From Rhodohalobacter sulfatireducens (lineage in GTDB: Bacteria; Bacteroidota; Rhodothermia; Balneolales; Balneolaceae), in the NCBI RefSeq assembly GCF_022012475.1, contig NZ_JAKLWS010000018.1, positions 1-64,000 of the forward strand: DNA of 64,000 nt, written 5' to 3'. Numbering within the stretch: position 1 is the stretch's first letter; every line of letters starts with the position of its first letter. Made by a program: the position numbers and the translations under genes. The notes beneath the pieces were generated by a model. That model saw nothing but the letters and a program-made list of their open reading frames with translations, ran no database searches and was not told the origin of the DNA. This document shows positions 30,361-34,608 of this stretch, one piece after another.

Positions 30361-33300
30361 ATGGCTAAAAAATTCAGCGAAGTTAAACAACTTGCCTACC
30401 CAAAGGCAGAAGTTGAAATTTTAAATTGGTGGAAAGAACATCAAATCTTTAAGAAGAGTTTGGATACCCGCGATGACGGGATTCCATTTACCTTCTTTGA
30501 GGGTCCTCCAACGGCAAACGGCAAACCGGGCATTCATCATGTGATGTCTCGGACCGTTAAAGATCTGTTTTGCCGGTACAAAACGCTTAAAGGGTTCCGT
30601 GTGGAACGAAAAGGCGGCTGGGATACCCACGGCTTGCCGGTAGAGATCGAAGTAGAAAAAGAGCTTGGATTGGAAGGACGCTCGCAGGTTGAAGAGTACG
30701 GTATGGCTAAGTACAACGCCAGGTGCCGGGAAAGTGTGCTCAAATATAAAGACATTTGGGATGAGCTTACCGCTCGAATCGGGTATTGGGTAGATCTGGA
30801 TGATCCGTACGTCACTTTCGAGAATGACTACATAGAATCTGTTTGGTGGGCATTTAAACAGCTTTATGATAAGGGGCTTGTTTACAAGGGATATAAGATT
30901 CAGTGGTATTCTCCCGGCAGCGGGACAGTACTTTCATCACATGAAGTTAGTTTGGGATACGAGGAGACTCAGGACCCATCAATTTATGTGAAGTTTCCGC
31001 TGGAGGCCGATGAAAATGTCTATTTCCTAGCATGGACAACCACACCGTGGACGATTATTTCAAATATGGCGCTTGCCGTGAATCCAAACCTGGAATATGT
31101 GAAGGTTAAGGTTTCTGAAGAGAATCAAACCGAATATTATATCCTGGCGAAAGGGTGCCTGGATGATGCCATGAAGCATGATTACGAAATTGTTGATTCT
31201 TACAAAGGCTCCGAACTGGTTGGATGGGTGTACAATCCCATTTTTGACTATGCACTTGAAGAAGTCGACAAAAATGATGCATGGAGAGTTATAGAGGCCG
31301 ATTATGTAACCACTGATGAAGGTACAGGGGTAGTTCATACAGCCCCGGCTTTTGGTGCGGATGACTATGAAACGTGCAAAAAAGAGGGAATCCCTCTCTA
31401 CAATCCGATTGACGGAGACGGCCGGTTCACCGAAAAAGTACCTGATTTTGAGGGTGAATGGTTCAAAGATGCCGATAAAGAGATTGCACGTGCCATTAAA
31501 GACAAAAACAAGATGTACTGGCACGAAACCTACCTCCACAACTATCCATTTGATTGGAGAAAAGGAACCCCATTGATGTCGTACCCGGTTGAATCCTGGT
31601 TTATTCGTACTACCGAGATCAAGGATAAGATGGTGGAGTTCAACAATAAAATTAACTGGAAGCCGGAAAGTACCGGTACCGGCCGGTTTGGAACCTGGTT
31701 GGAAAATAATGTAGACTGGGCTGTTTCCCGTCAGCGATACTGGGGAACTCCGATCCCGATTTGGGTGAGTGATAAAGACCCGGAGTACGTGGAGTGCATT
31801 GGCAGTATTGAGGAGTTACGAAAGAAAGCGGGTATCGACGAAAATGAAGAGATTGATTTACACCGACCCCATATAGACAAATACACCTGGGAATGCCCGA
31901 AAGGCGGAACCATGAGGCGGATTCCTGACCTTCTTGATGTCTGGTTCGATTCCGGCTCTATGCCGTGGGCACAATGGCATTATCCTTTTGAACACAAGAA
32001 AAAGTTCAAGCAAAATTTCCCGGCCGATTTTATTGCTGAAGGAGTTGACCAGACTCGTGGCTGGTTTTATACCTTGCATGCTCTGGGAACGATGTTATTT
32101 GATAAGCCTGCTTATAAGAATGTTGTTTCCAATGGCCTTGTGCTTGATGCCAATGGCGAGAAGATGAGTAAATCTAAAGGAAACAGTGTTGATCCGGCCG
32201 ATGTGATTCAGAAATTTGGTGCTGATACGGTTCGCTGGTATATGATGAGTAACTCATCGCCATGGGAGAATCTGAAGTTCAGTGAAGATGGACTGAGGGA
32301 GGTGCAGCGAAAATTCTTTAATACGATTGTTAATACGTACTCCTTTTTTGCAATGTACGCTAACATTGATGGATTTGCGTACTCAGGTGCATCTATTCCA
32401 AGTGCGGAGCGAACCGAGATGGACCGATGGATTATCTCCAGGTTAAACTCCACAGTGAAACTGGTGGATGAATATCTCGAAGAATATGAACCGACAAAAG
32501 CGGCACGCGCTGTAGAAAATTTTGTCGAGGAGCTGAGTAACTGGTATATCCGAAGGAATCGCAGACGATTTTGGAAAGAAGGTAAAAGCCTTGATAAAAC
32601 AGCTGCCTATCAAACTCTTTTTGAATGTTTGTTGAGTCTCGCGAAAATGATGTCGCCCATTGCACCATTTATGGGTGAGTGGCTATTCCAGAGATTGAAC
32701 GATGTGGCGAAGAAGGATGAAGAATCCGTTCACCTTTCGTTTTACCCTACGGTAGAAGAAACAGCAATTGATAAGCAGCTCGAACGCCGTATGGATGTGG
32801 CACGAATCATTAGTTCGGTAGTGCTTCGAATCCGGAATCAGATTGATATAAACGTTCGGCAGCCACTGGCTCGGATTATCTTACCGATCGACAAAGAAGA
32901 ACAATCTGTCGTTGAATCGGTAAAAGATATTATATTGGATGAAGTTAACGTTAAAGAAATTGAATACGTTAAAGATGAGTCAGGAATCGTCAGTAAATCG
33001 GCGAAACCTAACTTTCCTGTTCTCGGGAAACGGCTTGGAAGTAAAATGAAAGCTGTCGCTGCAAAAATAAACGACCTTGGAAACGAAGAAATCACTACCT
33101 TTGAAAGAGAGGGAGTGATTGAGTTAAGCCTGGATGACGGCGAGACCGTTCGGATTTCATCCGATGAACTTGAGATCCAACGAACCGGTTTAAAAGGTTG
33201 GTCCGTTGAAACGGAAAAAGGCATAACCGTTGCTGTAGATACTGAGCTAACACCTGAATTGGTCCGGGAAGGTCTCACGCGTGAATTCGTAAATAGAATT

Positions 33301-33531
33301 CAAAATATGCGCAAAGAGGCCGATTTTGAGGTGACTGACAGAATCGTAGTTGGTTTTTCAGGATCTGAACAGTTGACTGAGGCGGTAGAGTCTTCTTTAG
33401 AAAGTATTAAAACAGAAATTTTAGCTGAAGAAATTAATACCAATTTATTAGAGGTGTCAGATTTTATAAAAACCTGGGAAATTGAGGGAAATGATACAGA
33501 AATATCAATACGCCGAACGATTAACAATTAA
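30361..33531 (+). CDS. ileS: Isoleucyl-tRNA synthetase, type 2 with altered HIGH motif
   Basis: This 1056-residue class I synthetase charges tRNA-Ile. Length and sequence (WDTHGLPVEIEVEKELG, DEGTGVVHTAPAFGADD editing-domain block, QTRGWFYTLHAL) place it with IleRS2, the long eukaryote-like form common in this group, rather than the roughly 930-residue IleRS1. KMSKS is at 601-605. The HIGH motif reads G57-I-H-H60 (in NGKPGIHHVM), so the first and third residues are swapped compared with HxGH. It is the only IleRS in the window and so probably essential. It begins a run with the dksA-like gene and lspA on the same strand. Confidence 0.96.
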   Translation: MAKKFSEVKQLAYPKAEVEILNWWKEHQIFKKSLDTRDDGIPFTFFEGPPTANGKPGIHHVMSRTVKDLFCRYKTLKGFRVERKGGWDTHGLPVEIEVEKELGLEGRSQVEEYGMAKYNARCRESVLKYKDIWDELTARIGYWVDLDDPYVTFENDYIESVWWAFKQLYDKGLVYKGYKIQWYSPGSGTVLSSHEVSLGYEETQDPSIYVKFPLEADENVYFLAWTTTPWTIISNMALAVNPNLEYVKVKVSEENQTEYYILAKGCLDDAMKHDYEIVDSYKGSELVGWVYNPIFDYALEEVDKNDAWRVIEADYVTTDEGTGVVHTAPAFGADDYETCKKEGIPLYNPIDGDGRFTEKVPDFEGEWFKDADKEIARAIKDKNKMYWHETYLHNYPFDWRKGTPLMSYPVESWFIRTTEIKDKMVEFNNKINWKPESTGTGRFGTWLENNVDWAVSRQRYWGTPIPIWVSDKDPEYVECIGSIEELRKKAGIDENEEIDLHRPHIDKYTWECPKGGTMRRIPDLLDVWFDSGSMPWAQWHYPFEHKKKFKQNFPADFIAEGVDQTRGWFYTLHALGTMLFDKPAYKNVVSNGLVLDANGEKMSKSKGNSVDPADVIQKFGADTVRWYMMSNSSPWENLKFSEDGLREVQRKFFNTIVNTYSFFAMYANIDGFAYSGASIPSAERTEMDRWIISRLNSTVKLVDEYLEEYEPTKAARAVENFVEELSNWYIRRNRRRFWKEGKSLDKTAAYQTLFECLLSLAKMMSPIAPFMGEWLFQRLNDVAKKDEESVHLSFYPTVEETAIDKQLERRMDVARIISSVVLRIRNQIDINVRQPLARIILPIDKEEQSVVESVKDIILDEVNVKEIEYVKDESGIVSKSAKPNFPVLGKRLGSKMKAVAAKINDLGNEEITTFEREGVIELSLDDGETVRISSDELEIQRTGLKGWSVETEKGITVAVDTELTPELVREGLTREFVNRIQNMRKEADFEVTDRIVVGFSGSEQLTEAVESSLESIKTEILAEEINTNLLEVSDFIKTWEIEGNDTEISIRRTINN

Positions 33532-33542
33532 TATTTAGTGCT

Positions 33543-33947
33543 ATGGCTGCTTCAAAAGAATCACAAAACGAAGAAAGAGTTTCTCCTTATAGTGACGAAG
33601 AACTCGAGTATTTTAAGGAAATCATCATCAAAAAAAGAGATGAAGCCGAGCAAGAGTTAACGACTCTTCAAAATCTTCTTCGGGAAAGTATGGAAAATGC
33701 TTCAGACGAGTCTGCGTATTCATTTCATATGGCAGATGCCGGCACAGATGCCCAGGAACGGGAAAAGACCTATATGCTTTTCAATCGTACAAAGAAATTT
33801 ATCCGTTACCTGGATGATGCTCTGAGACGGATTGAAAATAAAACCTATGGTGTATGCAAAGTTACCGGCAAAAAAATTGCAAAAGGACGACTTGAAGCTG
33901 TTCCACATACCCAGTTGAGCATAGAAGCAAAACTGAAACGACGATAA
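33543..33947 (+). CDS. TraR/DksA-family protein with degenerate zinc finger
   Basis: This is a 134-residue protein: an N-terminal coiled coil (about 18-60), the tip motif DAGTDA at 65-70 matching the DxxDxA that DksA inserts into the RNA polymerase secondary channel, then a second helix. The C-terminal zinc-finger region YGVCKVTGKKIAKGRLEAVP keeps only Cys105 of the four ligands. Loss of the other cysteines is usual in Bacteroidota relatives. It is encoded between ileS and lspA with 11-base gaps. A role in stringent-type control of transcription is expected from the family. Confidence 0.88.
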   Translation: MAASKESQNEERVSPYSDEELEYFKEIIIKKRDEAEQELTTLQNLLRESMENASDESAYSFHMADAGTDAQEREKTYMLFNRTKKFIRYLDDALRRIENKTYGVCKVTGKKIAKGRLEAVPHTQLSIEAKLKRR

Positions 33948-33957
33948 TAGGCTTGAT

Positions 33958-34608
33958 TTGTCTGAGACAGGAAAAAAATTAGCCATACTTTTTTCGCCGA
34001 TTGTCCTTGTGTTGATACTCGACCAAGTTACGAAATACATGGTCAGAACAACTCCGGATCTTCAGCGGATGAGCGTCATTGACGGGTGGCTTGCATTTAA
34101 TTTTACAAAAAATCCGGGCATGGCACTCGGTATGGACTGGCTTTCTACACCGGTTATTAGCTCAGTTGCTATAGTGGCAACTATTGGTATTCTTACCTAT
34201 GTGCTCTTTAACCTCTCACAAGCCACATATGCATACCTGGTTTGTATGGGGTTGATTTTAGGTGGGGCACTTGGCAATATCATGGACCGAATTTTCATGG
34301 GGATTATTGGCGGATACGGCGGCGTATTAGACGGTCATGTTGTTGATTTTATTCACTTTAACCTTGAAATTGGTGAGACTCCAGTATTTCCCTACATATT
34401 TAATGTGGCGGATATTGCAATCAGTACGTCAATAATCATTCTTCTCTTGTTTCATAAAAAAATTATGCCTGTGGAAGATGAAGCTTCGATTTCAGAACAG
34501 GATCAAGGGGAGCAAATCTTTTATAGATCTGAAGAAGAGTTTATTGAGGCGAAATCAAACGAAGAGAAGAGTATCAGGGAGTCGGGCAGTGATTCACCCT
34601 CACTCTAA
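33958..34608 (+). CDS. lspA: Lipoprotein signal peptidase (SPase II)
   Basis: This is a 216-residue membrane aspartyl protease that cleaves prolipoproteins. Four TM segments carry the family boxes: LILDQVTKYMV, FTKNPGMALG, GGALGNIMDRI, DGHVVDFIHFN with Asp130 and FNVADIAIS with Asp152, the catalytic pair. The start is TTG 33958, since no ATG lies near and residues from MSETGKK fit an N-terminus. An extra charged tail of about 45 residues (after KKIMPVEDE) makes it longer than the usual 160-170. The last 9 bases overlap the convergent ribB gene. Confidence 0.93.
   Translation: MSETGKKLAILFSPIVLVLILDQVTKYMVRTTPDLQRMSVIDGWLAFNFTKNPGMALGMDWLSTPVISSVAIVATIGILTYVLFNLSQATYAYLVCMGLILGGALGNIMDRIFMGIIGGYGGVLDGHVVDFIHFNLEIGETPVFPYIFNVADIAISTSIIILLLFHKKIMPVEDEASISEQDQGEQIFYRSEEEFIEAKSNEEKSIRESGSDSPSL

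Follow-up and report, generated by a model that had tools for sequence, protein, structure and literature searches.

Among the closest described counterparts of the enzyme considered here are type-2 isoleucyl-tRNA synthetases (IleRS2) whose class I HxGH (HIGH) signature has its first and third residues exchanged. The first-pass annotation had invoked a published GxHH variant with high mupirocin resistance, and such a variant exists as described. Brkic et al., 2023 (PMC10485003) report G/AxHH in 86 IleRS2 sequences and show that it brings a rise in mupirocin Ki of up to 1000-fold. For the natural ALHH enzyme of D. radiodurans (DrIleRS2) the Ki is 6.6 mM, with no catalytic trade-off. Exchange of HVGH for GVHH raised the Ki about 200- to 430-fold, from 0.20 to 35 µM in T. 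thermophilus IleRS2 and from 1.08 to 460 µM in P. megaterium IleRS2, and the swap is not tolerated by IleRS1. The motif-exchange kinetics come from Deinococcus, Thermus and Priestia enzymes, with S. griseus as the only other natural case quoted there with a measured Ki. The swapped motif was called surprising in that paper, whose main text does not name the phylum studied here, although its tree and source data probably include members.

The synthetase and its signature motif

The window (the whole 64,000-nucleotide stretch of Rhodohalobacter sulfatireducens DNA that was analysed) contains the following features.

30361..33531, + strand: ileS, type-2 isoleucyl-tRNA synthetase, 1056 aa (TIGR00392, PF00133, PF08264, PF19302 and PDB matches)
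30529..30540, + strand: GIHH signature motif, G57 I58 H59 H60 (codons read; alignment at the HIGH site)
30547..30549, + strand: Ser63, at the position of PmIleRS1 Asn70 (alignment and numbering; contact from PMC10485003)
32137..32139, + strand: Leu593, at the position of PmIleRS1 Phe586 and PmIleRS2 His582 (alignment; contact from PMC10485003)
32161..32175, + strand: KMSKS motif, residues 601-605, canonical

The open reading frame starts with ATG, and its product reaches 1019.4 bits with TIGR00392, the ileS equivalog model (cut-off 621.4), which identifies it as an isoleucyl-tRNA synthetase. It carries the PF00133 domain, the anticodon-binding domain PF08264 and the C-terminal domain PF19302 (residues 855-1052). 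Its best PDB matches are four Priestia megaterium IleRS2 chains (950-962 bits, residues 16-1046), and the fold can be regarded as settled because of this similarity to solved IleRS2 structures. In contrast, the PmIleRS1 chains reach only 378-386 bits and S. aureus IleRS1 384 bits, each aligning only to about residue 800-827. Thus the protein is nearer to IleRS2 than to IleRS1, C-terminal domain included, and belongs to type 2, as the first-pass annotation had proposed.

Positions 30529-30540 (GGCATTCATCAT, read as GGC ATT CAT CAT) encode Gly-Ile-His-His at residues 57-60, exactly where the motif had been placed. Around it the protein aligns without gaps both to the HVGH of PmIleRS2 (8c8u, 8c8v) and to the top PDB match, 8c8w, the engineered GVHH mutant of the same enzyme. 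By this alignment GIHH coincides with the HxGH position of class I enzymes, with Gly first and His third as in the G/AxHH form. KMSKS is intact. The genome's ValRS and LeuRS retain HMGH and HVGH, so the swap is not common to these two sister synthetases.

Two further positions match mupirocin contacts. Asn70 and Phe586 of PmIleRS1 are given in PMC10485003 as IleRS1-specific contacts in the sensitive enzyme, with PmIleRS2 His582 as the stated equivalent of Phe586. Both are replaced here, Asn70 by Ser63 and Phe586 by Leu593; the numbering of Asn70 was checked on the PmIleRS1 sequence, and Phe586 was placed by aligning the residues around KMSKS with E. coli IleRS1 and with PmIleRS2.

Against these known systems the protein can be placed as follows. 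P. megaterium IleRS2 (8c8u; GVHH mutant 8c8w) is of the same family over nearly the whole length, at about 950-962 bits, but its natural motif is HVGH and it is a second copy beside IleRS1, whereas the GIHH enzyme here is the sole copy. The G/AxHH enzymes of S. griseus and D. radiodurans (ALHH) are likewise type 2 with motif positions 1 and 3 swapped, and KMSKS is kept in the protein here; it differs in having lost most of its zinc-knuckle cysteines and in coming from a different lineage. The plasmid-borne staphylococcal MupA and MupB are homologous type-2 enzymes matching at 916 and 890 bits, far below their curated cut-off of 1900 bits; they are acquired genes, whereas this ileS is a chromosomal housekeeping gene.

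We are highly confident that this is the sole housekeeping type-2 IleRS of a Balneolaceae-type bacterium, that its class I signature takes the naturally occurring G/AxHH form and that, by homology, it would follow the published mechanism. Gly57 would occupy the first motif position, and a ring nitrogen of His59, at the third, would come to lie at the site that the leading His of HxGH occupies, so as to take over transition-state stabilisation in isoleucine activation. The side chain of His59 would clash with mupirocin and lower its affinity, adding to the generally lower affinity of type-2 enzymes for the drug. From homology with the published enzymes we infer that His59 is the catalytic residue and that the mupirocin Ki would greatly exceed the values for HxGH IleRS2; hyper-resistance at the level of the enzyme is likely. 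Whole-cell resistance is one further step, as susceptibility of the cell depends also on the outer membrane and on efflux; searches of the literature yielded no usable data on mupirocin in this lineage.

Two side observations concern zinc. Nearly all cysteines are lost from YSPGSG (183-188), YPFDWRKG (395-402), PIWVSDKDP (466-474) and WECPKGG (510-516) of the IleRS (30361-33531), four stretches that we take to correspond to the pair of zinc knuckles in T. thermophilus IleRS. Among relatives this loss is widespread and patchy, with 0 to 9 Cys across the four stretches. Between ileS and lspA, positions 33543-33947 encode a DksA/TraR-type zinc-finger protein (PF01258) that keeps one cysteine of its C4 finger (YGVCKVTGKK...HTQLSIEAK) and for that reason probably binds no zinc. 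The order ileS, dksA-like gene, lspA (30361-34608) resembles the E. coli ileS-lspA neighbourhood with one gene interposed.

Distribution of GxHH and the origin of the swap

The first-pass annotation was right in its core, but it had also implied that the motif singles out this organism, and here it did not hold. The nearest named relatives are Balneolaceae metagenome-assembled genomes with about 80-84% IleRS identity, and identity within the genus reaches 93%. GxHH was found in every relative read at the level of genus, family, order and class, and also in the related Gemmatimonadota. Motifs read in fetched loci were GIHH (96), GLHH (32, mainly from Gemmatimonadota), GVHH (11) and GMHH (1), counts that include repeats, since some genomes were present twice. 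None of these individually read motifs was HxGH, the E. coli control excepted.

A pattern search extended this to the phylum. With the final pattern, PP-x-[A/V]-N-G-x-x-[G/A]-x-H-H, GxHH was found in 295 of 296 sampled phylum genomes and in all 292 of good quality; the one exception (G333) has a completeness of 88%. Earlier counts of 156/394 and 253/394 were underestimates caused by the search pattern and are superseded. When 29 non-matching genomes were re-examined, 28 were readable and all 28 had GxHH, nearly always after TVNG rather than TANG; the 29th (G323) is picked up by a pattern that admits Val. For the unswapped form, the stricter pattern PPxANGxxHxGH, with E. coli ileS as positive control and covering the Ala-Asn-Gly context only, matched in 0 of 394 genomes. 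An HxGH pattern lacking the second proline was dropped, as its matches were mostly methionyl-tRNA synthetase (PYANGPxHIGH). In one other phylum genome a second GIHH match (L168; G164 contig C10, 1-2600) is an IleRS N-terminus of fewer than 100 residues that runs in-frame into unrelated sequence on a 5.6 kb contig, either an assembly chimera or a gene remnant.

In 97 distinct relatives the motif is kept despite synonymous codons at all fixed positions (GGC, GGT, GGA and GGG for Gly; CAC and CAT for both His), which indicates purifying selection and rules out sequencing error or chance. Since the motif is fixed across the phylum and in Gemmatimonadota, GxHH is a fixed, inherited trait of the housekeeping IleRS and ordinary for its lineage. 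Such a distribution means that the motif predates this organism by far.

We think it somewhat more likely than not that members of the phylum, with GxHH fixed throughout, would share a target-level hyper-resistance to mupirocin, and that the swap is ancestral and perhaps irreversible there. Fixation of the motif may also have had causes unrelated to mupirocin, with resistance as a by-product: the IleRS2 fold may tolerate the exchange as a neutral change, or the motif may guard against a different inhibitor or improve catalysis. Fixation across the phylum with no reversion in the sample fits inheritance as well as standing selection, and the lack of a trade-off in ALHH DrIleRS2 (PMC10485003) is in keeping with such an origin; another selective agent, however, has no positive evidence behind it. 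We regard a by-product origin as a real, if tentative, possibility. It speaks to why the motif evolved rather than to its function, and can stand alongside our preferred reading of the enzyme.

A single housekeeping copy and its meaning for the phylum

That the housekeeping enzyme itself carries the swap rests on searches of the genome, a 5.1 Mb assembly in 138 contigs rated at a completeness of 100 and a contamination of 0.4. One match lay above the TIGR00392 cut-off in the profile search, the weaker ones being ValRS, LeuRS and more distant class I synthetases. Thus the second ileS that the first-pass annotation had suggested looking for was not found in a genome rated 100% complete. As the sole copy, this IleRS must charge tRNA-Ile and serve all isoleucine codons, which implies isoleucine activation with GIHH. 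The GIHH protein could in principle be an accessory resistance copy beside a housekeeping HxGH IleRS, much as some Bacillaceae contain both IleRS types (PMC10485003), but this is refuted by the single match above cut-off unless an ileS lies in a gap between the 138 contigs, and we consider it very improbable.

The idea that this species alone gained the motif recently, in response to mupirocin or a comparable antibiotic in its habitat, deserves practically no credence, even though such motifs do increase resistance (PMC10485003); it is refuted by GxHH in all relatives read from genus to class, in 295 of 296 phylum genomes and in Gemmatimonadota.

Variants of this kind were already known, along with how they work and what they do; what is added to the published variant is its sampled distribution, GxHH being practically universal in the sampled phylum. 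In this phylum the swapped HIGH motif is the rule and not the exception. Target-based insensitivity to mupirocin is predicted phylum-wide, and would matter both for selective media that contain mupirocin and for the annotation of such genes as acquired resistance.
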